A stretch of 60,658 nt of DNA from a virus, in IMG/VR virus record IMGVR_UViG_3300030103_001846, positions 1 through 60,658 of that record, one strand, 5' to 3'. Positions within the stretch are counted from its first letter, which is position 1. Every line of letters begins with the position of its first letter. A program made the translations under genes and the position numbers. Shown here piece by piece: positions 1,437 through 54,743 of the stretch. Under the pieces are notes generated by a model. That model had not been told where the DNA came from. It searched no databases and saw only the letters and a program-made list of their open reading frames with translations.

Positions 1437-1438
1437 AT

Positions 1439-2159: not shown

Positions 2160-2168
2160 ATCTTCCCC

Positions 2169-3949: not shown

Positions 3950-3952
3950 GAC

Positions 3953-4699: not shown

Positions 4700-4714
4700 A
4701 AGTCCTCCTTCTTT

Positions 4715-5287
4715 CTAAGATATTTTTGCACGACTACCAATAAAAAGACCAAATATATCAGTAGGAATGTTGCCATTACCACTTTCTATTTGTTCTTTCA
4801 CCCAAGCTTTTAACGTGGAAGAGTGCACACCTTTATTATTATAAGGTGTAAAACCCATTGCACGGAGTTGGTCGTAAGCAGAGACAGCATCAATAGATTG
4901 ATCCTTACCAAATTTTACCCCCACCTCATGTTTTATAATGTCACCAAAGCCATTATCTTCTAACCAAGCAAAAGCTTGTTCAGAATTAGCTTTAGATATA
5001 TGAGCATTATAAAAGTCTTGAATAACGATTTTAACACCGTTATTTAATTTAATTTCACTAAAACCTACTTCAGCCATCTTTTCAGGCAGTTGCCTTTCTT
5101 GGATGTCTCGTAGTTCTTCTTTAGCTAAACTAAGTTCTTCTGTAAGTTGGTCAACCTTATTTTTTGCTTCTACTTGTTTTTGAGCAAGGTCAGATACACC
5201 TTTCATCTCGTCATCAGTAGTAGCGTTTTTCCAATCAACATCTTGTTCAAAGAACTCTGCAGTTAGATTATCATTCGATTCCTTCAT
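4715..5287 (-). CDS. hypothetical protein with N-terminal coiled coil
   Basis: 190 residues. Residues 25-70 are a heptad-rich coiled coil (KNKVDQLTEELSLAKEELRD), followed by a compact alpha/beta domain. The start at 5287 is chosen for its AAGGAGGA site. It overlaps the upstream gene by 17 bases and precedes the putative ssDNA-binding protein, so a role in replication or recombination is likely. I do not recognise the family. Confidence 0.7.
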   Translation of the reverse strand: MKESNDNLTAEFFEQDVDWKNATTDDEMKGVSDLAQKQVEAKNKVDQLTEELSLAKEELRDIQERQLPEKMAEVGFSEIKLNNGVKIVIQDFYNAHISKANSEQAFAWLEDNGFGDIIKHEVGVKFGKDQSIDAVSAYDQLRAMGFTPYNNKGVHSSTLKAWVKEQIESGNGNIPTDIFGLFIGSRAKIS

Positions 5288-5615
5288 GTAAGTCCTCCTT
5301 AGCTTCTAGGTCTAATGATACAGGATAATAAACTTGCGTTTCTCTATCCCACTTTAAAACTTTAAACTTACTAAATTTTTGTGCTATCAAAGCACAGCAT
5401 ATTCCAATAGCAGAAGGATCGCCTATTAATAATAGATAATCTTCTTCAGGATTGAAATTAACAAGTTTACGTTTTAACTTCCTAATAACTGGTATACTAC
5501 TGAACATAATATTAGTATTAGCAGGTAACAATACATCAAGATTGCCAAATGAAGTTGCTTTTAGTATGTTTTTGCCCGGAGTTTCCTGAACAACATACAC
5601 ATAATTATCTTTCAT
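5271..5615 (-). CDS. hypothetical protein, first gene of the primase operon
   Basis: 114 residues with no recognised motif. The start is ATG 5615 behind AAAGGTAG. It is the first gene after the promoter at 5647-5682, so it heads the operon that leads to the primase and helicase. Its sequence is mixed alpha/beta and soluble. Confidence 0.65.
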   Translation of the reverse strand: MKDNYVYVVQETPGKNILKATSFGNLDVLLPANTNIMFSSIPVIRKLKRKLVNFNPEEDYLLLIGDPSAIGICCALIAQKFSKFKVLKWDRETQVYYPVSLDLEAKEDLHEGIE

Positions 5616-5646
5616 TCTTTCTACCTTTCTTATAGTTATTAATTAG

Positions 5647-5682
5647 TTTTTATAATTTATAAAAAAAGTAAGTCAAAGTAAA
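5647..5682 (-). promoter_or_regulatory. phage-type promoter for the primase operon
   Basis: On the minus strand GCTTTACT (-35 TTTACT at 5682-5677) is followed after 17 bases by TAAATT. An overlapping TTGACT-N18-TATAAA is also possible. The GCTTTACTTT block recurs upstream of other early genes in this genome. Confidence 0.6.
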
Positions 5683-5730
5683 GCGTTTTATTATTTTTTA
5701 TAGTATATTAGTTTTTAGAGAGAAGAAATT

Positions 5731-7167
5731 ATGTATAAGTTTAAAACTGTTCCCTATGAACATCAACATAAAGCTTTAAAAGAAAGTTGGAATAAACGTT
5801 CTTATGCTTATTTTATGGAGATGGGCACAGGTAAATCTAAAGTATTAATTGATAATATAGCTATTTTATATGATAGAGGAGCTATTAATACAGCAGTTAT
5901 TATTGCACCTAAAGGTGTTTATCTAAACTGGTTAGAAAAAGAAATACCTGCTCATATGCCAGACCATGTAGAAACATATATTGCTTTATGGAAAGCAGCA
6001 CCTACAAAAAGAAAACAAGAAGCTTTATTAAAACTATTTACAGAAAGCGATAAATTAAGAATATTAATAATAAACGTTGAGGCTTTTTCTTCCCAAAAAG
6101 GTAAAACCTTTACAGAAAAGTTTGTAAGGTCTACAGACTGTTTATTAGCTATAGACGAAAGCACTACTATAAAAAACCCAAAAGCTAACAGAACTAAAAA
6201 TCTTTTAAAAATAAGCCATGAGGCAAAGTTTAAAAGAATATTAACAGGTTTTCCTATTACTAAATCACCTATGGATTTTTATACACAGTTTAAATTTTTA
6301 GATACTAACATTTTAGGCTATGAATCTTTTTACGCTTTTCAAAACCATTTTGCAGAAGTTGTATCTAGGTCTGTAGGATCACATAGTTTTAGAGAAATTA
6401 AAAGTTTTAGAAACTTAGAAGAACTTAAAAAATTAACAAAACAACATAGTTACAGAGTTTTGAAAAAAGACTGTTTAGATTTACCCGATAAAATTTATAA
6501 CAAACATTACGTAGAACTAACACCTGAGCAAAATAAATTATATAAAGAAATGAAAAAAGATGCGTTAGCTACTTTAAATGATTTAGAAACAGTAACAGCT
6601 AATTCTGTAATGACACAATTATTAAGATTACATACTATGTTATGTGGTTTTGTAAAGACTGATACAGATAGCATTATAGATATAAAAAATAATAGATTAG
6701 ACGCATTACTAGAATTAATATCTTACAATGATAATAAAGTTATTATATGGGCTAATTATGTTCATAATATTAAAGCCATAAAAGAAGTATTAGAAAAAAC
6801 TTATGGCGGAGGTAGTGTTGTTAGTTATTATGGCAGCACAGGTCTTGATGATAGAAAACAAGCTATTGAATTATTTCAGTCTCAAGAAAGCGATGTTAGG
6901 TTTTTTGTAGGTAATCAAATGACAGCAGGGTATGGTATTACTTTAACTAGTGCAAACAATGTTATTTATTATTCTAATAGTTTTGATTTAGAAAAACGTT
7001 TACAATCAGAAGATAGAGCTCACCGTATAGGTCAAAATGATAAAGTTACTTATTATGATTTAACTGTAAAAGACACTATAGATGAAAAAATTGTAAAAAC
7101 TTTATGTGCTAAATTAGATTTAGCTCAACAAGTATTAGGTGATGGATTTCAATCTTGGTTAAATTAG
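5731..7167 (+). CDS. SNF2-family helicase/translocase
   Basis: 478 residues of an SF2 SNF2-type double-stranded DNA translocase. Walker A is MGTGKSK at 31-37, the DExx box is IDEST at 141-145, motif III is LTGFPI, and the arginine-finger motif is SEDRAHRIGQ near the C-terminus. It has no extra domains. It is the only gene on the plus strand, divergent from the primase operon and overlapping the last virion gene tail-to-tail by 4 bases. It probably acts as a replication or recombination helicase; its own promoter must lie in 5616-5730. Confidence 0.93.
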   Translation: MYKFKTVPYEHQHKALKESWNKRSYAYFMEMGTGKSKVLIDNIAILYDRGAINTAVIIAPKGVYLNWLEKEIPAHMPDHVETYIALWKAAPTKRKQEALLKLFTESDKLRILIINVEAFSSQKGKTFTEKFVRSTDCLLAIDESTTIKNPKANRTKNLLKISHEAKFKRILTGFPITKSPMDFYTQFKFLDTNILGYESFYAFQNHFAEVVSRSVGSHSFREIKSFRNLEELKKLTKQHSYRVLKKDCLDLPDKIYNKHYVELTPEQNKLYKEMKKDALATLNDLETVTANSVMTQLLRLHTMLCGFVKTDTDSIIDIKNNRLDALLELISYNDNKVIIWANYVHNIKAIKEVLEKTYGGGSVVSYYGSTGLDDRKQAIELFQSQESDVRFFVGNQMTAGYGITLTSANNVIYYSNSFDLEKRLQSEDRAHRIGQNDKVTYYDLTVKDTIDEKIVKTLCAKLDLAQQVLGDGFQSWLN

Positions 7168-7958
7168 ACAGGCATTTGTCTAATAATATCTATCTCTCTT
7201 AAAAAATCATCCATATTAGCTAAACTTAAACCTAATCTTTGATCTGGTGCTCCGCCACCACTGCCACCTCTTATATTAAAATTCATCATATCGTTTTGAA
7301 GTATCGGGTTTACCTCTACTCCTTTTATAGGATCAAAAACTAAATCTCCTATGCCTCCTGCAGGAGGTGGAGATTGAACAAGTTGTGATTCTTTTTTATC
7401 TTCTTCATCTACCCCTTCTGGGAAAGTAGGTATTTCTTGATTCAAAGCATCCATAATTGTTATTCTATATGGGTCATAACCAAACCCTAGTTGTGGAAAA
7501 AATCCTGCTCTTTGTCCTTGTATAAGTCTTAATAAAGGTTCAGGCATTTGCCTAATTAAATCTTTAGTTTGTTGTTCTTGCGTAGCTGGTGGGAGATCCA
7601 ATCTTTCAGGTTCACCAACCATTTGGTTTTGCAAAATACCACCGTCTTGCATACCTCTTATAGAATCAAAATCTGCAGTAGCTTCCATAAGTTCATTAAT
7701 TCTATTTTTCATAGTTTTAGTTTTATTCGAATTAAAATTATCTACTTCTATATCATATACTGATGGGTTATCTTTTTTAGATTTACCTCTAAGCTGTGTT
7801 ATTTCGAAATCTACTTTTTTAAGATTGTTTCTAATATTAGTGCCGTCTCGCATAATATCTTGTGTGTCCATCTTATCAAGGTTATTACCTAATTGATTAG
7901 TCATATTAGATAAAGATACTATGCCTTCTTCTATATTATTTAATTTATCAGATATCAT
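7164..7958 (-). CDS. putative virion protein, coiled-coil N-terminus
   Basis: 264 residues. The first 75 form amphipathic helices (SNMTNQLGNNLDKMDTQD); the rest is proline- and glycine-rich. ATGA overlap with the 1069-residue protein couples their translation. As the last gene of the internal-virion block it is probably a minor virion component. No family recognised. Confidence 0.6.
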   Translation of the reverse strand: MISDKLNNIEEGIVSLSNMTNQLGNNLDKMDTQDIMRDGTNIRNNLKKVDFEITQLRGKSKKDNPSVYDIEVDNFNSNKTKTMKNRINELMEATADFDSIRGMQDGGILQNQMVGEPERLDLPPATQEQQTKDLIRQMPEPLLRLIQGQRAGFFPQLGFGYDPYRITIMDALNQEIPTFPEGVDEEDKKESQLVQSPPPAGGIGDLVFDPIKGVEVNPILQNDMMNFNIRGGSGGGAPDQRLGLSLANMDDFLREIDIIRQMPV

Positions 7959-10900
7959 CTTTGTTTCGGTAATAATGTAATTTCTTCAGTTGTTAATTTT
8001 TCTGGTTCATCTTCAGCAAAAAATTGTTTTGCTAAAAAACCACCTAATATAGAATCCCTTCTTATTTTACTTGTTCTTTTAAATCTATTTTTAACAAATT
8101 CATTTAATAATACAGGATTTTCTACTAATTTTGTAACAGTATCAAAACCTCGTGCTAGACTATCACTACTAGCAATTCTAAATTTTACTGAATATTTATT
8201 TAATGGACCTAATATAAATTGTGCTAATTGTTGTCCTTCAGAATATTGTTTTCCATAAAAATTAATTATATCTCTGGCTGTGCCTTTATTTATAGCAAGA
8301 TCAAGACCTTCACCTCTAAACGAATTACCTAATGCTCTTTCTTGTAAATTAATAAAATTATTTATTAATTTTAAATTAGTAACATACTCTCTGCCTAAAA
8401 AATCACCGTAAGTTTTATTAAAATTAACATCTTTTGTTAATTTATTTAACGTAGCAGGGTTAAAAGTATTTCCATAAAAAGTATCTTTTATAGTTAATTT
8501 TTCAGATAAATCTTTCATTAAAAAGTTTTGAACTTCTTTTTCTAATACAGGGTTATCTTTTATAATATTTATTAATTCTCTTTTCTTAACTGTAGGAATT
8601 TTATCTGGGCTATCAATTAATAACCTATAAACTAAATTACCTACTTCTGCAGTGTCATCCTTTATTAAATCACCAAATTGTGCTTTTAATGTCCCTCTTG
8701 CTAAATCTGCTTTTTCTCTAGCAGCAATTTCTAATCCTAGTGATCTATTAAAATTACCTTTAATTTTCCTAATTTCATCAGGTGTAAAAATCCTATTTGC
8801 TAACGCAGAATTATCTTCGAAGAAATCTTTGACTATTTTTTTAGCTTGACCTTTATCAGTTATATTTTCTGTTGCGTTTCTTAATCTTTCAAAAACTCCT
8901 TCTCTAAAAGCAGGAATAAAATCTTGACTGCCTTTATCTAATATTTGAAATATTTCATCTATTGCACCCATAGATTGATAACTTTTACCATCTTGTCTAG
9001 CTAAATAATCAAAAAAACTTGCGTAGTCAAAACGACCTGTTCTAAAATCTTGTAAAACTTGTGATCTAAAATTTTCATTAGCTTGTTGGTATAGATTATC
9101 AACATAATTTTTAGCAGATAAAGGATTGTCAAATAGTTGTCCTTCTATAGTTATAGGGCTATCAAATTTATTTGCACCTAAAGCTTTATCTATATCGTTT
9201 TGTATAGCTTCTCCTAGTTTTAATAATGAAGCTTTAGTGCTAGGGCTATCAGTATTTTTAATTAAATAATCTAAACCTTCTTTAGTAGATCTTAATTCAC
9301 CAATTTTCATTCCGTCTGCTGCATTTTTAAATTGACCTTTAGAGTTCCTATCTCCTAATCTTAATAAAAAATCTCCAAAAGCGTCTCCCTCTAAGCCTAA
9401 CTCTCTTCTTAAATTAGGGTTTGCTAAACTTGCTATTAAATTTGCAGCTCCTTTATTATTTGCTTTATCTAACTTTAATAAAACTTCTCTAAAATTTTCT
9501 GGTTTAGCAGGAATATTATTTATTGCAGGATTTAATACATTGTTATAAACATTGTCTACTTCTTCTTTAAAACTTCTAGCAGTATCAAATATATAATTAT
9601 CGAAAGTTCCGGGAATCTTAGTTTGTGTAGGATCAACAGCTTCTCTACCAAATAAAGTGCGTCCTACTTCAAAAGCGTTACCTCTTTGTTGATTATAAGC
9701 ACCTCTTATATTTCTAGCTCTAGTTAATTCTTCTTGTAATTCTTTATTAATAACACCTTCTAATAAATTAATTCTATCTCTGGATAAAGTTTGTATTTCC
9801 GGTGCAATTTTTTCTAAAATTTCTCTTGATGATAAAGTATTACCCTCAACAGTCAATAAATTTTTAACGTAGTCTGCGATAGCTCTATTATTATCTTCTA
9901 ATTGAGATAAATATCTTTGTCTTACTTCTTTATTTGTAATGCTAGAACCTAAAAATACACTTTCTAATTCTAATAAATCAGCATCTTTAGTTCTTTGACC
10001 GAAAGTAGGTTTGAAACCAGCAGGTGCTTCATCTATTACTTCTTCTCGACTAATTTTAAGACCTGCTGTTTTTACTATATTATTAAGATCATTTAATATT
10101 TCATTCGGAACTTTACCTTCTGATAAAAAACCATGTAAACTTCTTAAACCAGTAGAAACTACTCCAAAAACACCTTCGCCTGCACCGGCTAGACCAGCAA
10201 TTAAACCTGCGTCTTGAGCTAAATCTGTGTAAGTTTTATCTTTATTTAAACCTAATTTTTCTTTACCTACAGCTAATCTTATATACTCATATAAGCCATT
10301 AATCAAAAAAGCAGGTGCAACTTGTGTCTTTGTAAAAGCAGCTGCTTTTTTTCCTCTACCCTCTAAAAGTTCTCCTTTACCAAAAAATCTATTTTTTAAA
10401 ACTATTGATGTTGCTATTTCTGGAATTAAAGGAGCTGCATCTTGCACACCAAACTCTGCTAAATCTTCTACAGTAAATCCGGGAGTATTGATAGTTTGAG
10501 GTGTATCATTTTCATTCATTTGAAAAACGATAGGGCTATTTTTATCTCCTGCTATTATGTGCCCTACAAAATAAGGTTCTTGCCCTCTTGTTTTTGTTAA
10601 AGTAGTTTGAACATCATCTACTGTATAATTTCTTGTGGCACCAACACCTAAATAAGCTCTTTCACCTATGTTAAAACCATCAAAGGGGTCTATACCTAAA
10701 TCTTGATATCGCTTTCGTTCTCCTGTAGGATCTAATAATTCACCTGCTTTTGAATAACCTTTTGATAAAATACTTGTAAATGTAGCAGGTGTATTAAAAG
10801 GTTTTAAAAACTCAGGAGTAATATCTCTTAATTTTTGAGAACCGCTACCAAGAAGTTCACCCATACCTTGTAATGTTTTAGCAGCACCTACTTGAAAACC

Positions 10901-11164
10901 TTGATTAAGGTCTTCTGGAGGTAATTGTTCTTTAGGTTCTAAAACTTGTTTTAATTGTGTTCTTTTTTGAACATCTTGTAATATATTACGAAGTTTTTCA
11001 CCAACTTCATCGTCTCTTTCTAAAAACTTTTGTCTAGTTTCAGCATCTAACTTTTGATAAGTATTTATAAATTCAATATCTTCATTAGATAATAAACTAG
11101 CTGTATCATCACCTAATTTAAAATTTAAAATATTATCAGATGATTCTGTTATAGGGTCAATCAT
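7955..11164 (-). CDS. large internal virion (ejection-type) protein
   Basis: 1069 residues, largely helical, with several long coiled stretches and an alanine/glycine segment near 310-330 (DAGLIAGLAGAGEGVFGV) that could insert in a membrane. Large helical proteins at the end of the podovirus structural block are usually carried inside the capsid and ejected with the DNA. No lysozyme or protease motif is visible. Function is inferred from size, composition and position after the tail-hub gene. Confidence 0.65.
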   Translation of the reverse strand: MIDPITESSDNILNFKLGDDTASLLSNEDIEFINTYQKLDAETRQKFLERDDEVGEKLRNILQDVQKRTQLKQVLEPKEQLPPEDLNQGFQVGAAKTLQGMGELLGSGSQKLRDITPEFLKPFNTPATFTSILSKGYSKAGELLDPTGERKRYQDLGIDPFDGFNIGERAYLGVGATRNYTVDDVQTTLTKTRGQEPYFVGHIIAGDKNSPIVFQMNENDTPQTINTPGFTVEDLAEFGVQDAAPLIPEIATSIVLKNRFFGKGELLEGRGKKAAAFTKTQVAPAFLINGLYEYIRLAVGKEKLGLNKDKTYTDLAQDAGLIAGLAGAGEGVFGVVSTGLRSLHGFLSEGKVPNEILNDLNNIVKTAGLKISREEVIDEAPAGFKPTFGQRTKDADLLELESVFLGSSITNKEVRQRYLSQLEDNNRAIADYVKNLLTVEGNTLSSREILEKIAPEIQTLSRDRINLLEGVINKELQEELTRARNIRGAYNQQRGNAFEVGRTLFGREAVDPTQTKIPGTFDNYIFDTARSFKEEVDNVYNNVLNPAINNIPAKPENFREVLLKLDKANNKGAANLIASLANPNLRRELGLEGDAFGDFLLRLGDRNSKGQFKNAADGMKIGELRSTKEGLDYLIKNTDSPSTKASLLKLGEAIQNDIDKALGANKFDSPITIEGQLFDNPLSAKNYVDNLYQQANENFRSQVLQDFRTGRFDYASFFDYLARQDGKSYQSMGAIDEIFQILDKGSQDFIPAFREGVFERLRNATENITDKGQAKKIVKDFFEDNSALANRIFTPDEIRKIKGNFNRSLGLEIAAREKADLARGTLKAQFGDLIKDDTAEVGNLVYRLLIDSPDKIPTVKKRELINIIKDNPVLEKEVQNFLMKDLSEKLTIKDTFYGNTFNPATLNKLTKDVNFNKTYGDFLGREYVTNLKLINNFINLQERALGNSFRGEGLDLAINKGTARDIINFYGKQYSEGQQLAQFILGPLNKYSVKFRIASSDSLARGFDTVTKLVENPVLLNEFVKNRFKRTSKIRRDSILGGFLAKQFFAEDEPEKLTTEEITLLPKQR

Positions 11165-12925
11165 CTATGGCTTTCTCATAATTAAATCAGTAAAAATTTT
11201 TTCTATTTCTTCCTCTGTAAGAGGGGGATTATTGTCTGTGCCTGAGTCAGCAGTATTAGGGTTTATAAATGATTTATAATCAAAACTAGAGTCTAATAAT
11301 TGTGTTTCTAATAAATCTGGATGAGTTAAATTTATAATATTCATAACAGATCTTGTAGTATTAGGTTTATCTTCTACTAACATTTTAAAAGGATCTTTAA
11401 AACCTATTTCAACTGCTTCTTTAGAATATGGTTTTTTGTCTACGCCTTCTACATAAGTTTCTCTTAAACGTTTACCTCTTTTTTCTAAATTAGCAGTAGT
11501 GCTTAATACAAAACTTGACATTAACCTTATAGCACCGTTTACATCAGAAACTTCACCACCAACAATATTTAACATATTTACAATATCTTTATCAGAAAGT
11601 GATCTACCTTCTTGACCATTAATCATCGCTGCCTGATACGCCATTTGTAATAAAATAGATTTATATTGTGAATCTTTAGCTTTATCATCAGATAGTCTAC
11701 CAAACCTATCCCAATTAAATTTATTTCCATCTGCTCCTACTATGCCATTTAATTTATTAGGGTCATCAAAGACTTCTCTCATTCGTTCAGTTGAAGCAGC
11801 GTTTTGTGCTTTTAATTCATCTACTGATATTCCTATATTTTTTGCTAAACTAGATACTTGTTCATCGCCTAATAATAAATTAGACATTTCATTTATTTGT
11901 TGATTACCAGATACAACAAGCCCTTTTACAGCTTGAGCTAAACCAAATTGATCTGTTGCAGCAGGAACTATTTCACCTAATAAACTTAAACCAGAATTAG
12001 CTAAACCATATAATGCGTCTAATGCTAATAATCTTTCACTGTATTTATCTACTCTTTTATCAAATGCTGTTTGACTTCCAGATTGTCTATCTAAATCAAA
12101 AGCACTACGTAAATTTAACCTATCTTTATCCCATGATTCAGCTTGGGGGTCTAATGGTCTATATACATTACCTTGATAGAATATTTGATCTCCACTCATT
12201 TGATCTTGAGTTAAAGGTTCACCTTTTTCATTTGTTGCTAAAGCAAATACCTCATCAGTTTCGAAACCTTTACCGTCTCTAATTTTTCTTATTACACCAC
12301 CAGTTTCTTCACCGGTTGACCTATTTATAGTAAATACAGGTTCTAATTTAGGTGTAAAAGAGTCTCCTTCTTCTAAGAAATCATCTAATAATTTACCATA
12401 AATAGTTTTTCTAGTATCTTGTTTTGTAGCCATTAGTTCTGCTTCGGCTTTAGCTTCTTTTCCTCTTTGAGCTAAAAAGCCTCTTTGAAACTCTGGACTT
12501 TGTCCTGCTGCTATTAACCTTAATACAGTATCTTTTACAAAACCACGGTCTTGACCAGTAGTTTGTGGGTATAACTCATTAGTTAATAAATTAGCTATAT
12601 CGTCTATATTACCTAAATTAATTTCATCTTTATCAAAATTACTTAAAAGGCTACTAATAGGACTTCGCCCACCACCACCTTGAGAAATTAAATCATCTAA
12701 TCTATTAGCTGAACCGCCTGTAGGTATATTAGCTGTAGGTAAATTTGCTCTAGGTATATTATTAACCATAGATACACCACCTGCTTGCGGTGCATCAACT
12801 CCGGGAAGATTAACATCTTTAAGGGTAGTTATACCACCACCGGGAGTGGTGCCACGTCTATACATATCTAACGGATATAAACCTCCGCTTTGAGCTATCA
12901 TTCTTTCTAAATCTTGTAAATTCAT
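11165..12925 (-). CDS. putative internal virion / DNA-ejection protein
   Basis: 586 residues. The first 90 are rich in glycine and proline (disordered); the remainder is helical. One base separates it from the next gene in each direction, so it belongs to the internal-virion operon (15.4 to 7.2 kb). No catalytic motif recognised. Role inferred from context. Confidence 0.6.
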   Translation of the reverse strand: MNLQDLERMIAQSGGLYPLDMYRRGTTPGGGITTLKDVNLPGVDAPQAGGVSMVNNIPRANLPTANIPTGGSANRLDDLISQGGGGRSPISSLLSNFDKDEINLGNIDDIANLLTNELYPQTTGQDRGFVKDTVLRLIAAGQSPEFQRGFLAQRGKEAKAEAELMATKQDTRKTIYGKLLDDFLEEGDSFTPKLEPVFTINRSTGEETGGVIRKIRDGKGFETDEVFALATNEKGEPLTQDQMSGDQIFYQGNVYRPLDPQAESWDKDRLNLRSAFDLDRQSGSQTAFDKRVDKYSERLLALDALYGLANSGLSLLGEIVPAATDQFGLAQAVKGLVVSGNQQINEMSNLLLGDEQVSSLAKNIGISVDELKAQNAASTERMREVFDDPNKLNGIVGADGNKFNWDRFGRLSDDKAKDSQYKSILLQMAYQAAMINGQEGRSLSDKDIVNMLNIVGGEVSDVNGAIRLMSSFVLSTTANLEKRGKRLRETYVEGVDKKPYSKEAVEIGFKDPFKMLVEDKPNTTRSVMNIINLTHPDLLETQLLDSSFDYKSFINPNTADSGTDNNPPLTEEEIEKIFTDLIMRKP

Positions 12926-12926
12926 T

Positions 12927-14381
12927 TTATATTGAACCTAATCCTGCACCCATACTCATATCAAACTGATTACCTATTGGTATTACAGATGTTGTAGAAC
13001 CTGCTAATGGTGCAAGCCCACCAAATATTCCTGCTACATTAGCAATAGTTTGCATAGGTAAATTATATTGACCAACAAAGTTTTGATAATCTAAATCAAG
13101 ACCTGTTTGTTGCATACCTCTTTGTGTACCACCTATATTACCTAATAATTGAACATCTCCTCTTTGTAGAGCAGGTAGCTGTCTACCTATATTAAGTTGT
13201 TGTGTACCTAATTGTCCTAATCCTTGTCCTAAACTTGAACCTAAAGCACCTGTATAACGTCCTGCACCTAAACCTAAAGTTCCAAGTTGTGAACCTAGCT
13301 GACCGATACCTAGACCTACTTGTCGACCTGCAGTTCCTGCAGCTTGTCCTAATCTACCTAGTTGTTGTGCTAATTGTGATTGTTGAGCACCACCTAATTG
13401 TGTAGCACCTAATAAACCTTGTAATCCAGCTTGTTGTCCGGCTAGTGTTTGTTGTCCTAATGCACCAGTTTGTCCTGCTAATTGTGATAATAATCTAGCT
13501 TGATTTGCTTGTCTAGCTTGTTGTGCTTCAAATGCTTGTTGTGCAGCATTTTGTGCTAAACCAAACCCTTGTGCTCTTATCCCACCTACTGCTTCTGCTG
13601 CTCCACGACCTGCACGTCTAGCTAATTCTTCAGAAGCTAATCTACCTCTAGCTCCACCAAAAGCACCACTTCTAACTTGTTGTGCTCTATTAGCTATATC
13701 TGATGTAGCTAAACCTTCGCCAACATCACGTAATGTTTGTTGTACAACAGCGTCTTCAAAAGGATTAAAGAAAGCACTTGTTGATCTAGGATCAAAACCT
13801 CTTGTAGATAAAAGACCTGCAAGACCTGCTTGACCTAGTCCCCCTAATGCAGAAGAAATAAATGGAGCTTGACTTCCTGCAAGACCTCTAAAGCCCATCT
13901 GTGCTTCACTTACCCCTCGACCTACGTCACCTGCTCCCATACGAGCTGCTTCTTCTGCCTGTCTATATAAATCTAATTCAGGAGCTAATGAACCTTCTAA
14001 CCTTGATACACCTCTACCTGCTAAATCTGTTGCTTGTGCTAAACCAGAAGCAATTTGTTCTCTACCAGTTTGTCCGCTACGCATTAATTCTTGTGCAGCT
14101 TGTTCTGTTAAAGACGCACTTCTATCTAAAAAAGGTCTATATGAACCTATAGCTTGTTCACCTAATTCGAAAGCTCGTCTTTCTTGCGGTGTAAAGTCAG
14201 CTATACGTTGTCCTGTATATGTAAAAGGATTAGTATCTGGTAAACCTAGTTGTGAGAACTGATTAACTAATTGTTGATTTAATAAAGGAAATAATCCGGG
14301 AATACCTGCTCCGCCACCTGCAATCATATCTTGTACGATTCTGTTAGGGGCTAATATTTGTTGTTGTGATTCTACTGCCAT
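12927..14381 (-). CDS. Ala/Gly/Gln-rich internal virion protein
   Basis: 484 residues with very low complexity: from about 80 to 420 it is an Ala-Gly-Gln-Leu helical array with imprecise repeats such as GLGQLGTQQL and QLGSQLGTLGLG. This composition is typical of ejection proteins of marine podoviruses. Start codon overlaps the preceding stop by one base. Confidence 0.65.
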   Translation of the reverse strand: MAVESQQQILAPNRIVQDMIAGGGAGIPGLFPLLNQQLVNQFSQLGLPDTNPFTYTGQRIADFTPQERRAFELGEQAIGSYRPFLDRSASLTEQAAQELMRSGQTGREQIASGLAQATDLAGRGVSRLEGSLAPELDLYRQAEEAARMGAGDVGRGVSEAQMGFRGLAGSQAPFISSALGGLGQAGLAGLLSTRGFDPRSTSAFFNPFEDAVVQQTLRDVGEGLATSDIANRAQQVRSGAFGGARGRLASEELARRAGRGAAEAVGGIRAQGFGLAQNAAQQAFEAQQARQANQARLLSQLAGQTGALGQQTLAGQQAGLQGLLGATQLGGAQQSQLAQQLGRLGQAAGTAGRQVGLGIGQLGSQLGTLGLGAGRYTGALGSSLGQGLGQLGTQQLNIGRQLPALQRGDVQLLGNIGGTQRGMQQTGLDLDYQNFVGQYNLPMQTIANVAGIFGGLAPLAGSTTSVIPIGNQFDMSMGAGLGSI

Positions 14382-15412
14382 TATACTAATTTTGTCCTTA
14401 TTTGTTCTAGGTTAGCTATGCCTTGTTCGTAATCTCCGCCACCTAAATAATCTACCATAACTTTCGGTAAAACATATTCTTGGTCGCTTAAGTATACAGG
14501 AATATCATCGCTTGTTGGTGTGCCGGGACCTCTTATTTCTCCGTCTGGTCTAACCATCATAGCATCAAGTTTAGGTCCTCCATCTTTATAACCTATTTTC
14601 CCACCGAACATTGCTCTATTTGCTCCTACGAAATTTTTTAAATTTGGAAACTGTGGTGTATTAACTACTGAACCTTGTATATAAGGGTTATTTTGTAAAG
14701 GGTTTACTCCCGGTCTAAGACCTTGATCAGCAAAACTAAACCTACCTTGAGTTCCATATGGGTCTTTACCATAAATAGCTTCGACTAATTTAGGAAATAT
14801 TAATTGTGTTCCAAGTTGAGTTGTGAGAGGATTTTCTTTAGCAAATTCTTCTAAACTACCTATACCTCCTTTAATTCTATCTAATACAGTTTTATCTCCT
14901 GCTAGGTCAGCAGTTTTACTTGCAACCATCTCTCTTCTACCTTCATAAAATTTAGGAGGACTTAAAGAATTACCTTTAGGATCAACAAATTTCCTTGTCT
15001 TTTTATCAAAAGTTGCATTAGAAAAATCGAACCCTTGATTACCTATACCTAATAAACTACCTAAAGTCGAATCACCAACATTAGCAAAAGCTGAACTAAA
15101 TGCTTGTCCGGGATTTGAAAAAGTAGCCCTAAACCCTTGACCCTGTGCACCAAAGCCACCGGCTAGACCAGCAGCAAGTAACATATTTTGTGCATAATTA
15201 TCACTAGCAGAAGTTTTCGTTCCAATACCAGCACCGATTGCAGCACCGGGAGCTCCACCTATAACACCGCCTATGATAGCCCCGATTGCAGGACCTAATT
15301 TTTTAAATGCTTTTCTAAGTTCACCACCTATTCCATACTCAGGTGCAGACTCAAAATCTTTTTCTACCATATTAGATAAAGAACCTATTCCTTGTTTTTC
15401 TAACATTTCCAT
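14381..15412 (-). CDS. virion protein with glycine-zipper segment
   Basis: 343 residues. Residues 38-66 form a glycine-zipper membrane-type helix (GPAIGAIIGGVIGGAPGAA). The C-terminus carries the stretch GPGTPTSDDIPVYLSDQEYV, common in structural proteins of marine phages. It overlaps the basic protein upstream by 13 bases; a second ATG at 15406 is also possible. Probable ejection or tail protein. Confidence 0.65.
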   Translation of the reverse strand: MEMLEKQGIGSLSNMVEKDFESAPEYGIGGELRKAFKKLGPAIGAIIGGVIGGAPGAAIGAGIGTKTSASDNYAQNMLLAAGLAGGFGAQGQGFRATFSNPGQAFSSAFANVGDSTLGSLLGIGNQGFDFSNATFDKKTRKFVDPKGNSLSPPKFYEGRREMVASKTADLAGDKTVLDRIKGGIGSLEEFAKENPLTTQLGTQLIFPKLVEAIYGKDPYGTQGRFSFADQGLRPGVNPLQNNPYIQGSVVNTPQFPNLKNFVGANRAMFGGKIGYKDGGPKLDAMMVRPDGEIRGPGTPTSDDIPVYLSDQEYVLPKVMVDYLGGGDYEQGIANLEQIRTKLV

Positions 15413-15702
15413 CTTCTTCTAGCCTGTCTTAATCTTGAATTAGGATTTTTTGCCGCTTTTGGGAATTTTTTCATTTGTCCTGCACTTCTTGCACAATAAG
15501 ATTTCCTACGTTTTGCAGCTTTACTGCCTTTTTTAACTTTTCCAGTTACTGCAGTTTTTAATTTAGATCCGGGATTTTTACGTCTATAAGCTTTTACACC
15601 TTTAGCAGTCATTCCTGCTCCACTTTTAGTAGGTCTGTAATTAGCCCCTTTGCCTTTAGTAGTGCGTCGTATAGATTTTTCTTTACGTTTTGCTTTAGCC
15701 AT
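15400..15702 (-). CDS. small Lys/Arg-rich protein (DUF6321-like)
   Basis: 100 residues, strongly basic, with the marine-phage signature GVKAYRRKNPGSKLKTAVTG and SYCARSAGQ. It should bind DNA or RNA. The family is widespread in marine phages without known function; the name is from memory. Starts behind GGGAG. Confidence 0.7.
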   Translation of the reverse strand: MAKAKRKEKSIRRTTKGKGANYRPTKSGAGMTAKGVKAYRRKNPGSKLKTAVTGKVKKGSKAAKRRKSYCARSAGQMKKFPKAAKNPNSRLRQARRRWKC

Positions 15703-15811
15703 AAACTCCCTGCATACAAATCCTTATGTAATCTATAAATAGATGCAGGTAGTCTTATTGACTCCTGAATACTTTATATCATAGCTATTATTATTAATAA
15801 GATAAAGTTTT
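15703..15811. other. 109-base gap, no gene
   Basis: Separates the hub-side gene from the internal-virion operon. I see the ribosome site for the downstream gene but no clear terminator or promoter. Confidence 0.5.
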
Positions 15812-16123
15812 TTAACTTATAGTAACAGTCACTGAGCCGACAGCTGAAGTAGCAGTTCCTACAATACATTTAACTGTAAAAGGTGTAGAAAGGTTTACAA
15901 ACTCAAACCCATCCCATAGTTGTAAAGTATTTTCTGAAGTATTAAAAATTACAGTGCCAGTATTAAAATTTTGTTTATCTCTATCCGCAGTATTTACTTG
16001 ATAAGTATTTAATATATCTACTTGCCCTAAATTAAGTTCAAGTATTCTAATTAATTTATTAAATAATTCTGGACTTACTTCATCTACTGCAAAAGGCAAA
16101 TTAGTCGGTAATAATTTAGCCAT
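15812..16123 (-). CDS. hypothetical tail-associated protein
   Basis: 103 residues, ending in a beta-strand (TSAVGSVTVTI). Its start codon shares a base with the stop of the gp10-like hub gene, so it is translated with it and is probably a small tail component. Confidence 0.6.
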   Translation of the reverse strand: MAKLLPTNLPFAVDEVSPELFNKLIRILELNLGQVDILNTYQVNTADRDKQNFNTGTVIFNTSENTLQLWDGFEFVNLSTPFTVKCIVGTATSAVGSVTVTIS

Positions 16124-17994
16124 TACCTTCTACCGTCTTGCCTTACATCTACTCTTGTAGCTCCTAATCTCCAACCTGTGCCTGTATTAGCAGGTGCGTT
16201 ATCATCATCTGATTCTACTCTAAATACAAACTGTCTACCCCTAGCTCTTATATGTTTTTGAGTTGTAGTAGAAGTAATTTCACTAGTATTAGCAGTAGCT
16301 AAGTCCTCATTAGGAAAGTTTCTAACTTTAGTAACCATATTTAATTGACCTCCACCAGAATTAGATAAAAACTTAACATCAGGTATAAGCCTATTTATAA
16401 ACGAAAACGTATCGCCCTCACCAATATCAATATCAGAACTTTCTATAAACACACCTGTCATAGGTTGACCATCATCATCAAAACCAGTTTCATGTTGATA
16501 AATATAATTATTAGCACTAGCTTGTGGGAAATTTTCTACCCCCTCGTCTAACCATGAAGTTCTAATAAGTTGTCCATATGTCCAAGTATCTTCTTCATAG
16601 TTATATATTACATATCTATCTATTTCATCAGACGAAGCAGAAGGATAAAACCATCCGACTTCATTTTTATTGTTTATAGTAAAAGCAAATATTTTATAAG
16701 CCTGACCTCTGTTAATATCACTAAATACATAATTTTGCACTGTGCACCTTACTTTATTAACAGCTCCTGTATAAGCATAAAAGTTTTCATACCCCATCCA
16801 TAAAACAGCTTTCGGTGTAGTAATAGCAGCTTTTGGAGCCATTAAACCAGAATTTTCATTTATTAAATTAATTCCAAAAGTAAAAGGAGGTCCAATAAAT
16901 TGCATAGAATATAATGAGGTATCTGTCCATACTAATATTTCTTGACGGGCTTTTACACCTCCAACAATTAAAGAACCAGAAGATAATCTTAAACTTCCTG
17001 CTGTATTAGTAGTTAAAGGTTTAAATACTGCAGGATTTTCTTGATCACTAAAAGTTATTAACATAGGGTCTATAGACCCTGTTCTAGCATCCTCATCAGC
17101 ATTTAAGGGATCAGAACCTAAAACTATTAAATGTCTATCAGTTTCTGAAGTTAAAACTTGTAAAGCTTTTGTAGGTGCTAAATTAGCTCCTGATAATGAT
17201 GATAAAGCTACCGCTCTAGTACTTAAACCATTAGTTTGATCCCAATAAAAAATTCCACCACCTCTAGGGTTTATAACTAAATCTTCACCAAAATTATCAT
17301 GTGTCCAAAGTCTAAGTTGATTAGATGCAGATATAGGTGAAGTAGAACCCCATCCTCCATCACCCCAAGTATTTACTCCCCAACCACTAGAGGCTACGAA
17401 CACATCTAAACCAGTATTAATCTGATAAGCCCCTACAACAGATCCCCCACCATTACCTGTATCACTAGAATTAGCAGTAACAGTAACTCCACTAGTATTT
17501 TTAGCTTCTATTGTGTAAGAGTTTGCATTTACAATAGTTGCTATTTGATATTCTTGATTTAATACAGCAGAATTTATATTACCGCCTAAAGAAGAAGCAC
17601 CAGAAAAAGTAACGAAATCATTTTTTACTGCTCCGTGTGCAGTATCTGTTACTGTTATTGTAGCGTCTGAATTAGTTGCAGAAAAAGTTACATCACCTGC
17701 TGCAGTTGTTGATCTTATAGGTGTTATATCGTTGTAAGAAGAACCTTCTAAAATATAATATTTTAAATTAGTTCCTATACCTAATAATTTTGTGCTACTT
17801 AAAGTAACCCAATTATGTAAAGCTCTTGCTGTGCCTAAAAAAGTATTAGCTGTTAATTTTAACCAACCACCAAATTTTTCTGGTCTACCTTTTCTAAAAC
17901 GAACTAAATTAACATCAAACCAACCACCTTCATTATCATAGTCAGTGCCTTCTCTATTTATTCCCGGTCTAAATATTAATTTTTGTAACGCCAT
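16123..17994 (-). CDS. P22 gp10-like tail hub / DNA stabilisation protein
   Basis: 623 residues, beta-rich. The N-terminus LIFRPGINREGTDYDNEGGW and the GRPEKFGGW segment are typical of the P22 gp10-like packaged-DNA stabilisation family, which forms the nozzle plugging the podovirus portal after packaging. The C-terminus ends in a beta domain with GTGWRLGATRVDVRQDGRR. It sits upstream of the internal-virion genes and downstream of lysozyme. Family call is good; propeller fold is known from the family. Confidence 0.75.
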   Translation of the reverse strand: MALQKLIFRPGINREGTDYDNEGGWFDVNLVRFRKGRPEKFGGWLKLTANTFLGTARALHNWVTLSSTKLLGIGTNLKYYILEGSSYNDITPIRSTTAAGDVTFSATNSDATITVTDTAHGAVKNDFVTFSGASSLGGNINSAVLNQEYQIATIVNANSYTIEAKNTSGVTVTANSSDTGNGGGSVVGAYQINTGLDVFVASSGWGVNTWGDGGWGSTSPISASNQLRLWTHDNFGEDLVINPRGGGIFYWDQTNGLSTRAVALSSLSGANLAPTKALQVLTSETDRHLIVLGSDPLNADEDARTGSIDPMLITFSDQENPAVFKPLTTNTAGSLRLSSGSLIVGGVKARQEILVWTDTSLYSMQFIGPPFTFGINLINENSGLMAPKAAITTPKAVLWMGYENFYAYTGAVNKVRCTVQNYVFSDINRGQAYKIFAFTINNKNEVGWFYPSASSDEIDRYVIYNYEEDTWTYGQLIRTSWLDEGVENFPQASANNYIYQHETGFDDDGQPMTGVFIESSDIDIGEGDTFSFINRLIPDVKFLSNSGGGQLNMVTKVRNFPNEDLATANTSEITSTTTQKHIRARGRQFVFRVESDDDNAPANTGTGWRLGATRVDVRQDGRR

Positions 17995-18438
17995 TTACAC
18001 CTCAGTCCAATCTTTACCTTCAAATAATAAAGCTTCTGCTTCCCTACGTCTTACTAAACCTTGTAAAACCTTACCTCCTGCTTTATTCCAACGTTTAATT
18101 TGATGAGGCACTTCATTAAAATCTTTATCATTCAGAACTTTTAACATAGTGCTTTCATTTAAATTTGTTGGACCTAAATTATACGTCCATGATACCAAAG
18201 CATCAAACTCATTTTGTTTTAAATCAATCTTGACTGCTTTTTCAACATGTTCGCAATACTCATCTAATTCATTAAGCAACATATTGTCAGCTTGTTCTTT
18301 AGAAATAGTCATACCTTCTCTAACGTTTTTTGTATGACCATATCCTATAGTCCAGACTCCAACTGCGTCCTTGTATGCCTCTAACTCACAACCCTCAAAC
18401 TTTTTTATTAAATTAATACCTTCACTTGATATATGCAT
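17995..18438 (-). CDS. T4-type lysozyme (glycoside hydrolase 24 endolysin)
   Basis: 147 residues. Cleaves peptidoglycan at host lysis. The catalytic triad spacing of T4 lysozyme is kept: E in KKFEG, D nine residues later (AYKD), T six later (VGVWTIGYGHT). Start ATG 18438 is chosen because the longer frame overlaps the SNase gene and because GGGGGGA lies just upstream. No signal peptide, so it needs a holin. Ends one base before the hub gene. Confidence 0.93.
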   Translation of the reverse strand: MHISSEGINLIKKFEGCELEAYKDAVGVWTIGYGHTKNVREGMTISKEQADNMLLNELDEYCEHVEKAVKIDLKQNEFDALVSWTYNLGPTNLNESTMLKVLNDKDFNEVPHQIKRWNKAGGKVLQGLVRRREAEALLFEGKDWTEV

Positions 18439-18439
18439 A

Positions 18440-18820
18440 TTAATAGTCCCCCCATACTTTAGTTTTTTTACCGCCATCATATTTAACTGCATGACCTTCA
18501 TTGATAAGCATTTCGCAAATATCCTCATCATTTTCTGTATAAGGGATTGCAAGTATTCTGCCATATTTGCCTTTGCCAAATGATTTAATAGTTATAGACC
18601 CAATACATAATTCTTTTAGTCTATCTTTTGCTGCAAGCCCTAATTTTTTCTCTGCTAAATCACGAGTCCTTGACTCAGGTGTGTCTATGCCTGCCAACCT
18701 GCAGCGTTGTTTATACAAGCGGACATCAAATCCTAAGTCAAGGGTAACATCAATAGTATCCCCATCAACCACTCTTTCGATAGTTGCTTTATACACATAT
18801 GGTTCTGGTTTACTACTCAT
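18440..18820 (-). CDS. staphylococcal nuclease-like (SNase) nuclease
   Basis: 126 residues of the thermonuclease family, which hydrolyses DNA and RNA with Ca2+. Active-site elements are VVDGDT (17-22), R41, D46-T47-P48-E49 in RLAGIDTPES, and R88 in KYGRI. No signal peptide, so it acts in the cytoplasm or the virion. It sits between the spanin and lysozyme genes, overlapping the spanin frame by 8 bases. Confidence 0.9.
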   Translation of the reverse strand: MSSKPEPYVYKATIERVVDGDTIDVTLDLGFDVRLYKQRCRLAGIDTPESRTRDLAEKKLGLAAKDRLKELCIGSITIKSFGKGKYGRILAIPYTENDEDICEMLINEGHAVKYDGGKKTKVWGDY

Positions 18821-19193
18821 TATCTTTAGTTGTTACTTTTCTATAATATACAACAACATCTTTTAATTCTGTAATATATCTTTTTATCTCTTGCATATTG
18901 TATGCCATAATCTCATAATCCGGTATTGTCATAGCTAAGAACACTAATTCACCCTCTTGCTTTTCTATTTTTGCAAGTTGTTCTTCCCAATTTTCTGGTG
19001 TTACTGCAATCCATTGTAATTCTTGAAGATTTATTTCTCTTGGCATAATAGGTTGCACTATCTGCCTTTCAATAGGCTTTGCACTAACCTGTATTTGTTT
19101 AGTTGGTAGTAGACTGCAACTGTAAGCCATCATCAAGACTATCAACAGTAATGCTGATTTTCTCGATGTCTTCCATAATATGTTTTGTGCCAT
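18813..19193 (-). CDS. putative o-spanin-like lipoprotein
   Basis: 126 residues. An N-terminal hydrophobic stretch (SALLLIVLMMAYSC) ends in a cysteine that could be lipidated, though the lipobox is imperfect. It starts inside the i-spanin-like gene in another frame, overlapping by 95 bases, the Rz/Rz1 arrangement. It is longer than a usual Rz1 and lacks its proline-rich tail, so the call rests on the layout. Confidence 0.55.
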   Translation of the reverse strand: MAQNILWKTSRKSALLLIVLMMAYSCSLLPTKQIQVSAKPIERQIVQPIMPREINLQELQWIAVTPENWEEQLAKIEKQEGELVFLAMTIPDYEIMAYNMQEIKRYITELKDVVVYYRKVTTKDNE

Positions 19194-19494
19194 TATTTAT
19201 CTTCCTTTCCATTTCTATAGGGTTAGCTAATATTTTAGAAGCTAATTCATAATTTTGTATAAATTGTGTATATCTATTTAATTCTCTTTGAGCTATTTGA
19301 CTTTTGATACTTAGATCTTGAAGTTGTTGGGTTTGTAATTCAAAATCTGCCTGCAAGCTTTTGATGGTTTCTTCTTGTGTAGATACAGCACCTTCTAAAA
19401 CTGCGTTATTAGTTTGAAGTATTTGGTTTTGGCTATACAAATAATAAGAAACTGCAAGCAAAACTAAAACTATACCTAATAAAACTTTACTCAT
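19099..19494 (-). CDS. putative Rz-like i-spanin
   Basis: 131 residues from ATG 19494, chosen because the hydrophobic anchor (VLLGIVLVLLAVSYYLY) then lies at the N-terminus as in Rz. The periplasmic part is a coiled coil. It should pair with the overlapping lipoprotein to fuse inner and outer membranes at lysis. It overlaps the upstream small lipoprotein by 8 bases. Confidence 0.65.
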   Translation of the reverse strand: MSKVLLGIVLVLLAVSYYLYSQNQILQTNNAVLEGAVSTQEETIKSLQADFELQTQQLQDLSIKSQIAQRELNRYTQFIQNYELASKILANPIEMERKINNGTKHIMEDIEKISITVDSLDDGLQLQSTTN

Positions 19495-19690
19495 TACCCA
19501 TACACCAATTCCAAGCATCGTGATCGTGGTATAAAAATGCCTCACATTTTTTATATTTTTCTCGCCATTTATCAGAGTCAAACTTATCGTTCCACTCTAA
19601 GCTAGAATCTTTTGCTATAGGTATAAATTTAGATGGTGTTGAACAACCTATACAAAATATACTAACCAGCAAGAGGGTTTTTATTTTCAT
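19487..19690 (-). CDS. small lipoprotein in lysis cassette
   Basis: 67 residues with a signal peptide ending in a lipobox-like FCIGC (cysteine 16), then a soluble part with two more cysteines (KKCEAFLYHDHDAWNWC). Probably anchored in the envelope. It could be the real o-spanin partner or an entry-exclusion lipoprotein. Confidence 0.6.
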   Translation of the reverse strand: MKIKTLLLVSIFCIGCSTPSKFIPIAKDSSLEWNDKFDSDKWREKYKKCEAFLYHDHDAWNWCMGNE

Positions 19691-20009
19691 TTTCTATATC
19701 CTCTATTTTTTCTTCTAAACTTTTTAAACTGGCTTTTATTGTGGCTATGTCAGTTTTTATTTCCGTAACGTCGGGGATAGATATATTATCTAATTCTTTT
19801 TCAAGAAAATCTACTGACGTTTCTATGCTTGCAAAACGTTCTTCAATAATTTTTTGTGCGTCTTTAGTGTCTCCTATTCCACCTATTTTAGCTTCTAGGT
19901 TGTCAATTCTATTAACATACTGTGCACCAGTCCATCCGAATCCCGCTAAAGTAGAAACTATCCCTACTAGAGCTATTAATTGTGTTGTTTTACTCTGTAA
20001 CCAATCCAT
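19662..20009 (-). CDS. single-pass membrane protein with coiled coil
   Basis: 115 residues from ATG 20009, preferred over the longer frame for its GGAGAT site and position just after the preceding stop. A transmembrane helix at 11-30 (LIALVGIVSTLAGFGWTGA) is followed by a long coiled coil. It resembles holin-associated or haemolysin XhlA-like proteins and probably aids lysis. Confidence 0.6.
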   Translation of the reverse strand: MDWLQSKTTQLIALVGIVSTLAGFGWTGAQYVNRIDNLEAKIGGIGDTKDAQKIIEERFASIETSVDFLEKELDNISIPDVTEIKTDIATIKASLKSLEEKIEDIENENKNPLAG

Positions 20010-31971: not shown

Positions 31972-32696
31972 GTGTTAATTTGACCCCCCATCCCTGAATG
32001 GTTAGTACAATAATAATACAATGTTGGTGCCCCTGAAGCAACCTCTATTTGTGTATACGCACCAGACTCACCGGGAACTCCATTAGTTGTCACCCCTGTA
32101 GTGTATTCTACTCCACCTGCATGAGTTCCATTAGAGGTTATTGAAAACCTCAAAGGGTGATTGTTATTAGTGCTGTCTGATTGATCAAACTTATAAGTTT
32201 GTCCTTCTGTAAAATTTAATGTAGGAGCTCTGCTACCATCAACGTAAAAATAATTTGCCCCATAATAAGCAGCCACAGTTACAGTATATGTAGTTATCGA
32301 GGGCGATGGTGTTGGTGCTGGTGTAGGCGAAGGTGTTGGAGAAGGAGATGGTGTTGACGATGAAACACCAGATACAGTAATTTCTCCAACACCGCCTAAA
32401 GCTGACAGTAAATTAAAACTGCCACCTATGAAATCGTCAGTAGTATTATATTGTGGGTTGCTACTTGTTGTTCTAACAATACCAACGTTTACTTCTTTAT
32501 CTATGTCTGGTCTAGACTGATATAAAGCCTCAGGATCTACAAAAACTCTATTTGGTTGTAATTGTGGGTGTTTAGGTTCATATTGATCAGGTCCTACCTT
32601 TAAACCGTCCCAAGTCTTTTTTAAATCATTATACTTATATCTTAAACCTGATCTATCGCATATTCCGTAAGCATACTTACCTTTAGCGTAGCTCAT
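31968..32696 (-). CDS. virion protein with cupredoxin-like C-terminal domain
   Basis: 242 residues. Residues 1-110 are a conserved tail/neck domain (KGKYAYGICDRSGLRYKYND). A Ser-Thr-Pro linker (114-134) leads to a beta domain with potential type 1 copper ligands H180, C230, H233 and M236 (NNNHPLRF, YYYCTNHSGMGG). The C-x2-H-x2-M spacing equals that of amicyanin. The domain is probably displayed outside the virion. Metal binding is inferred. Confidence 0.6.
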   Translation of the reverse strand: MSYAKGKYAYGICDRSGLRYKYNDLKKTWDGLKVGPDQYEPKHPQLQPNRVFVDPEALYQSRPDIDKEVNVGIVRTTSSNPQYNTTDDFIGGSFNLLSALGGVGEITVSGVSSSTPSPSPTPSPTPAPTPSPSITTYTVTVAAYYGANYFYVDGSRAPTLNFTEGQTYKFDQSDSTNNNHPLRFSITSNGTHAGGVEYTTGVTTNGVPGESGAYTQIEVASGAPTLYYYCTNHSGMGGQINT

Positions 32697-40801: not shown

Positions 40802-41488
40802 TTATTTTTTCTCCTTATCATTATATAAGTTATCAAAAGTTATATCAGGATCCATATAACTATCATGTTCTTCTGCAGAATTTAAATATTGTGAAGGAGT
40901 AAAATCAGGTGCACCTTCTCCGGTAACCCAAAGTGCAGGACTTGTTGCTCTAACACGGTTATTAGGTAAAGCTACAAAATTACCCGTCCACTTCCCTGCG
41001 TCAGTTAAATATAATACATGACTTTGTTTATGTTGAGCCGGATCATCAGCTATATCGTTACCAGTATAATCTACGGTAAATAAATATTTACCAGTATAAA
41101 ATTCACTGCCAATTTTACATTGCCAAGGGCTAGAACTAACTCTATCTATAACTACAACACTATGTTCACGTGATTCGCAATCCCAAGGTTGTGCTAAATG
41201 ACTTTCCATACGTTCTCCCCATTGTTCTAATGGTATATCAGCAACTAATGCTTGTATAGGCATACGTGCCCACATTGCACCGCCATGAACACTTGTTTCT
41301 TGTTCATCGTCTAACTCTATCTCACAACCAGTAAAAACAACTTGAAAAGATAAAGATCTGTCAGGAATGGTATTTACCGCTATGGCAAGGGCATGAAGAT
41401 ATTCTCCATGGTAATCTTGATGATTAGCTGTAAATTCCTTTCGCACCCAGCATTTAAAATGCGGGATGTTAGAAATTAAGTAAGGCAC
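40802..41488 (-). CDS. hypothetical protein conserved beside terminase
   Basis: 228 residues, mixed alpha/beta, with ISNIPHFKCWVRKEF and GEYLHALAIAV. Position between portal and terminase suggests a packaging or head function. Seen in marine phages; function unknown. Confidence 0.6.
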   Translation of the reverse strand: MPYLISNIPHFKCWVRKEFTANHQDYHGEYLHALAIAVNTIPDRSLSFQVVFTGCEIELDDEQETSVHGGAMWARMPIQALVADIPLEQWGERMESHLAQPWDCESREHSVVVIDRVSSSPWQCKIGSEFYTGKYLFTVDYTGNDIADDPAQHKQSHVLYLTDAGKWTGNFVALPNNRVRATSPALWVTGEGAPDFTPSQYLNSAEEHDSYMDPDITFDNLYNDKEKK

Positions 41489-54388: not shown

Positions 54389-54445
54389 AATATTCTCCTT
54401 TCTTTATGTCGTTTACGTCAGTTAAGCCCTTAACTAACTACGGAT

Positions 54446-54474
54446 ACTTTAAAAAACAATTATATGACAGTAAA
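54446..54474 (-). promoter_or_regulatory. phage-type promoter for DUF932 gene
   Basis: TCGCTTTACT (-35 54474-54469), 17 bases, TAAAGT (54451-54446). A TATAAT lies closer but at the wrong distance. Confidence 0.55.
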
Positions 54475-54499
54475 GCGATTAACGAGTTAAATTTAAATC

Positions 54500-54697
54500 T
54501 TTTAAATTAAAAGTGTCGGTGGTAGATTAGCCCATCATAATACATTAATAATGTCCTATGTTTCATTACATCTATGAAAACAATTACAAAGACAGGAAAA
54601 TTAAACTAATAAAACCTCTCTTAAACCGCCAAGCGTCACACACATCTACCTCGATTACGCCATCCGACACAAACACAGCTTTGGAGTGGCGGGCTAA
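54500..54697 (-). ncRNA. candidate pseudoknotted non-coding RNA
   Basis: About 200 gene-free bases. Three perfect 7-base complementary pairs occur (plus coordinates): GTGTCGG 54513-54519 with CCGACAC 54664-54670; GGTAGAT 54521-54527 with ATCTACC 54644-54650; TTAGCCC 54527-54533 with GGGCTAA 54691-54697. The first two nest and the third crosses them (pseudoknot). A promoter at 54703-54731 would start transcription near 54696, right at the first pairing segment. No ORF. Class not recognised. Confidence 0.55.
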
Positions 54698-54702
54698 AGT
54701 AT

Positions 54703-54731
54703 ATTAAAAATAATTTTTTTATCAAAGTAAA
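54703..54731 (-). promoter_or_regulatory. phage-type promoter for the candidate RNA
   Basis: TCGCTTTACT (-35 54731-54726), 17 bases, TTTAAT (54708-54703). Expected start is about 54696. Confidence 0.6.
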
Positions 54732-54743
54732 GCGATAAACGAT

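Follow-up and report, generated by a model that had tools for sequence, protein, structure and literature searches.

Can a stretch of phage DNA that holds no gene encode a functional RNA, and what would such an RNA do? The question is raised by a virus from the IMG/VR record IMGVR_UViG_3300030103_001846, analysed here over its whole 60,658 nt (the window, whose coordinates are used throughout). The original prediction, made from this DNA alone, was a functional pseudoknotted RNA of about 200 nt. Compensating changes among relatives support such an RNA, but it would be read from the minus strand and be about 180 nt long, and one of the proposed helices was wrong. The structured RNA extends over 54513-54692 (-), from the first base of helix D to the last base of the helix B 3' arm. 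By comparing homologs, we show that the window carries one member of a widespread and previously uncatalogued family of putative structured RNAs in marine phages related to HTVC023P and HTVC027P. The base-pairing of the predicted RNA is proven by its evolution across these relatives.

Complementarity and coding potential

All three of the perfect 7-bp complementarities proposed at the outset are present. The two nested ones (54513-54519/54664-54670 and 54521-54527/54644-54650) are real helices, here called B and C, which covary in homologs. The third, helix A, would cross them by pairing UUAGCCC with GGGCUAA (54691-54697/54527-54533); the window can form it, and other lineages cannot. For want of conservation it was rejected, and D takes its place as the true crossing helix.

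The arrangement had been thought hard to obtain by chance. Three 7-bp helices with at least three G/C each, one of them crossing, arose in 0.06% of 5000 shuffles that kept dinucleotides, but two further spots in the window (32201-32321 and 44921) also carry three crossing 7-bp complementarities, which we take as chance. Thus, the complementarity pattern alone is a lead, not proof. Single-sequence folding compared with shuffles was unremarkable for the minus strand (z = 0.04); the plus strand gave z = -2.02.

As had been claimed, no ORF fits the element. The sole minus-strand ORF of at least 30 amino acids inside it, which lies over the conserved core, is frame-shifted by an indel in two relatives (L002/L003); this 30-aa ORF was rejected as coding since its frame is not kept. 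Between the RNA and the next promoter, the window has no ORF. A search with Rfam 15 (4227 covariance models, family thresholds) gave no match in the window, and a tRNA/tmRNA search found none. Under relaxed thresholds, Rfam returned nothing meaningful in the window element or in L116-L118, L129, L132, L140, L152, L160, L170, L171, and L181.

Anatomy of the fold

From 5' to 3' on the minus strand, on which all of the following features lie, the order is helix D, a UCC-rich spacer, B, E, C, AUGUGUGUGA, E', D', variable hairpins, GNUAAU, C', a single A or G, and B'. Comparison of members shows that the 3' strand (C', A or G, B') closes two nested helices on the 5' domain, with D crossing both. 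The resulting double pseudoknot is compact and surrounds the invariant AUGUGUGUGA and UAAU segments.

Helix B pairs GUGUCGG (54664-54670) with CCGACAC (B', 54513-54519), and helix C pairs GGUAGAU (54644-54650) with AUCUACC (C', 54521-54527). A single nucleotide (A or G) links C' to B' in all tabulated members but one, so that the helices can stack. Helix D, which the earlier list did not contain, pairs CCGCCA (54687-54692) with UGGCGG (54626-54631, against 54692-54687). In the L002 group (L002/L003), it reads CCACUA/UAGUGG, which amounts to two full compensations. Helix E (GGCGU, 54657-54661; ACGCU, 54632-54636) encloses the C 5' arm; it is less certain and partly supported, with 62% of its cells paired in A3, our MAFFT alignment of 25 members.

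The core AUGUGUGUGA (54636-54645) is invariant in A3. So is UAAU within the family consensus GNUAAU, represented in the window by the conserved segment GGGCUAA (54527-54533). The hairpins between D' and GNUAAU are long in the window and missing in L094/L097. They comprise hairpin F (AAGAGAGG/CCUGUCUU, 54589-54622, one mismatch), which marks a variable hairpin position where many members have a hairpin of other sequence, and two lineage-specific hairpins identified by near-relative comparison, G (54560-54581) and H (54536-54560).

Relatives in marine viral contigs

Near relatives were retrieved from IMG/VR through neighbouring proteins. A covariance model of four closely related sequences (R1), run over DNA-polymerase relatives, gave weak matches in L097, L116, and L118. 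In all three, B and C are of different sequence and still paired: UGCUCUUGG/CCGAGAGCA (B) and GGUAAAU/AUUUACC (C) in L097, CUCCAG/CUGGAG (B) and GGUGGAAU/AUUCCACC (C) in L116, and GCUCUCAG/CUGAGAGC (B) and GAUAAAU/AUUUAUC (C) in L118. The three have AUGUGUGUGA in common, and it is found with the helices also in L086 and L094. The pattern scans described below required both AUGUGUGUGA and UAAU, yet the R1 matches had AUGUGUGUGA without selection for it, and UAAU was not demanded of them either.

Viral contigs were scanned with AUGUGUGUGAYRY plus YUAAUYYNNC over three gap ranges and then with a descriptor for C and B. The descriptor splits the matches cleanly: true members have a C of 7-8 bp and a B of 6-10 bp, and chance matches a C of at most 5 bp. 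The scan with a gap of 98-128 gained no new lineage, and model R3 additionally found L254, with its own paired arms. A first pattern, TCGGATGGCGTAATCGA, was abandoned; it matched only the near relatives of the window and three unrelated contigs without the rest of the element. In total, one starting sequence led to about 36 IMG/VR contigs with the RNA, representing 25 distinct sequences. We define the family by a helix C of at least 6 bp between AUGUGUGUGA and the position after UAAU, a helix B that closes C, and a helix D that crosses; the window copy has every one of these features.

Other searches were negative. Against a 50,697-record phage collection, BLAST returned nothing relevant for the window RNA, for six other members in full, or for part of one more, at a sensitivity that distant members could escape. 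Model R2 had no match in the isolate stretches HTVC023P 1-20000, HTVC027P 1-12000, and 023Pt_psg01 1-12000. A one-pattern scan of 84,980 cellular genomes gave 71 pattern matches, none with the helices. A description of the RNA family was not found in the open-access literature.

Covariation

Compensating changes in related phages, the test that the original prediction had named, are seen at most pairs. In A3, helix B is 99.4% paired, and both sides have changed at all seven pairs. Helix C is 93.7% paired (four rows are off by one column), with four pairs changed on both sides; it is 100% paired if anchored by position, an anchoring that is part of the membership filter. Over the 25 sequences, both-side changes occur at 12 pairs. 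The covariation score is 0.517; shuffles score 0.197 +/- 0.016, and slid controls no more than 0.12.

Helix D is too variable for column alignment (22 distinct arms among the 25 members). Even so, 99.3% of its pairs form, compared with at most 59% when arms are swapped between members, a control that incompletely corrects for the choice of the best helix. Together, B, C, and D are 99-100% paired, a level reached by none of 5000 arm swaps, although these percentages lean upward: C and a scoring B were conditions of membership, and the best helix in range was picked as D.

Support that is independent of the descriptor comes from the three R1 matches, which preceded any descriptor, and from model R3. 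This model, whose training set held neither the window nor its relatives, matches the window at 54700-54509 on the minus strand (74.9 bits, E 2e-15), which upholds the claim of a functional RNA. All non-Watson-Crick pairs in B, C, and D are G-U except two, and none is A-C; this is as expected for a putative RNA of the minus strand, with the reservation that the descriptor allowed G-U and disallowed A-C.

Promoter and flanking repeats

The RNA is preceded by a promoter of a phage series (54698-54744, -), with the box ATCGCTTTACT at 54736-54726 and a -10-like TATACT at 54703-54698. The same ATCGCTTTACT...TATACT series precedes minus-strand early genes at 54479, 52797, 51861, and 50391, and is also found in relatives. 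The predicted transcript start, at about 54692, is the first base of helix D. A promoter at the exact 5' end of the RNA had been proposed; the series promoter is real, but it lies on the minus strand, and its predicted start is at helix D.

A second promoter copy (54444-54485, -) lies upstream of a DUF932 gene and is an imperfect 42-nt direct repeat of 54701-54742, with 74% identity. The RNA cassette is therefore flanked by imperfect copies of the promoter region, while relatives with one promoter have no cassette. This suggests that the cassette was gained or lost by recombination between the promoter repeats, which is plausible. Among near relatives, the element is present in L001, L016, and L002-L004; in L005-L009 and L011-L015 it is missing, and there is one promoter only. 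Since close relatives (neighbours 82-95% identical) are without the RNA at this site, it is dispensable. L002-L004 also have a 57-aa ORF (MKKYQINIKEIKSANYNIEAK...) between the RNA and the second promoter, absent from the window.

Genome context

The DNA polymerase family of these phages is common to HTVC023P, HTVC027P, and 023Pt_psg01 (45-52% identity). It is present in 15 of the 27 member records searched; the others are fragments, 4 to 32 kb long. Model R2 found one RNA copy per genome in 16 of 49 records. Where the polymerase gene is on the record, the RNA lies 0.7-6.8 kb downstream of it on the same strand, in the early module. Two sites are used: one after a VRR-NUC-like gene (window, L003, L094, L097, and L176) and the other a few kb past the DUF932 gene. 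The term "VRR-NUC-like" is our reading of the sequence; Pfam gave no match, and the PHROGs family is annotated as a DNA helicase. Elsewhere in the window, a helicase gene at 5731-7167 (+) is the one large plus-strand ORF amid minus-strand genes, and a ferredoxin-like auxiliary gene (phrog_3704) lies at 40802-41488.

Upstream stop codons are mostly 1-15 nt before helix D. Downstream, an ATG follows helix B by 2-7 nt in 9 of the 25 members, often opening a small zinc-ribbon ORF. Zinc-ribbon patterns occur in 6 of the 10 ORFs that start within 25 nt past the fold, against a background of 4.7%; the members are related, so that the P value is only indicative. The L164-type zinc-ribbon protein occurs at six loci, all of them on RNA-carrying contigs. 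Other members differ: a strong intrinsic terminator directly follows the fold in L158 (-25.9 kcal/mol) and the near-identical L160, and in L094, L097, and L176 the downstream gene is further off and has its own ribosome-binding site. The two genomic sites and the varied downstream genes indicate that the RNA does not depend on one neighbour. Just past the RNA, L161, L177, L151, L167, L145, and L148 share a conserved GURUC..UUGUAAU..GAUAC, which may form a hairpin or else be what is left of a CxxCN zinc-ribbon peptide that lacks a normal start codon.

Candidate functions

Our leading candidate is a stand-alone phage RNA that acts in trans, a role to which we give nearly an even chance. In the window phage, its own early promoter would yield a separate transcript of about 180 nt that begins with helix D. 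During infection, it would act through its three-dimensional shape, which would let it bind a protein of the host or the phage, or a small molecule; it would neither code for protein nor simply pair as an antisense RNA. Such a role is favoured by the covariation among 25 distinct members and the recovery of the window by R3, as well as by the single copy per genome near the polymerase and the two sites with several downstream genes. In the window, the RNA has a promoter to itself and no ORF intervenes before the next one, and L158/L160 have a terminator, promoter and terminator being documented in different members. Against a trans role stand the close relatives that are without the RNA at the site, and both the nearby ATG and the zinc-ribbon enrichment fit control in cis better.

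Such control is the main rival, which we hold less probable. The RNA would be a translational regulator, riboswitch-like or protein-bound, whose fold hides the ribosome-binding site of the next gene, often a zinc-ribbon gene, with a ligand or protein deciding on translation. Besides the ATG and the enrichment, the exclusive occurrence of the L164-type loci on RNA-carrying contigs favours this reading, and the stop codons closely upstream of helix D resemble those before an intercistronic leader. However, no ORF separates the window copy from the promoter that follows, the L158/L160 copies run into a terminator, and downstream genes vary. Members with a nearby ORF do not differ from the rest in the Shine-Dalgarno strength of B' (p = 0.58), a result that speaks against cis control being what the family does in general; B' as a general Shine-Dalgarno element was rejected as a family rule on this result. 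For the trans-acting RNA, zinc-ribbon genes that start 2-7 nt past the fold would represent a secondary use or partnership rather than the core function. In such relatives, the structure would cover the ribosome-binding site, so that the fold and initiation at that ATG would be mutually exclusive and folding would have to compete with translation.

We consider it rather improbable that the RNA is a self-cleaving ribozyme, or a processing or RNase-blocking element that sets the end of the upstream or downstream transcript. Nested pseudoknots with invariant unpaired segments would suit it, as would the position of helix D directly past the upstream stop codon, and the order D, B, D', hairpin, B' resembles by inspection the HDV-like P1, P2, P1', P4, P2'. 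Yet no Rfam ribozyme family matches, helix D varies in length and first base, and helix C occupies the place of HDV P3 and P1.1. That these are chance complementarities in gene-free DNA, with no functional RNA at all, is barely conceivable: the chance triples at two other spots and the unremarkable minus-strand folding would allow it, but the pairs changed on both sides and the independent recovery of the window do not, and this reading is refuted by the covariation.

Comparison with known systems

SAM-II and the preQ1 classes are pseudoknot riboswitches that hide the Shine-Dalgarno sequence. Similarly, the last pseudoknot strand of some members has a Shine-Dalgarno-like sequence right before an ATG. 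Unlike these riboswitches, the present RNA is larger, has another conserved core and no Rfam match, and is followed by no gene in several copies. Nor is its placement consistently that of a leader: zinc-ribbon ORFs follow some members, and other genes, a terminator, or no gene are found elsewhere. GOLLD is a large phage-carried noncoding RNA; both it and the present RNA are structured, but ours is far smaller and has no Rfam match.

HDV-like ribozymes have a nested double pseudoknot topology, P1-P2-P3-P1.1-P4. In the present RNA, a helix C of 7-8 bp connects the inner loop with the segment that directly precedes the last helix (B'), where HDV has P3 and P1.1, and no P1.1 equivalent is seen by inspection. 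It also differs in its variable first helix and the lack of an Rfam match. HDV-like ribozymes include the theta ribozymes of gut phages (PMC10879173). The present RNA shares the phage setting with the latter and, with the HDV-like fold, a 5' helix that crosses a helix to the 3' end, with a hairpin between. Comparative genomics of bacterial and metagenomic DNA has revealed orphan structured RNA motifs (PMC2864571). As with these motifs, our family is a conserved structured RNA found by covariation, with no function assigned; it differs in having no Rfam family for the members scanned and in occurring here only on phage contigs, mostly of one marine group.

Significance

The family and its fold are new, while phage-encoded structured RNA as such is known. 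These results add a well-supported structured RNA family, with covariation-proven pseudoknots, to the relatives of SAR11-infecting phages. The consensus and models make the RNA directly searchable in marine metatranscriptomes, and so compact a fold lends itself to probing and structure work. Whether it is a trans-acting RNA, a translational switch, or a ribozyme is a clean question for experiment. Tentatively, and as something possible rather than probable, this may be a new class of phage RNA with a double-pseudoknot fold that, while its phage infects marine bacteria, targets host machinery in trans or has catalytic activity; in some phages a zinc-ribbon partner protein would be encoded just after it.
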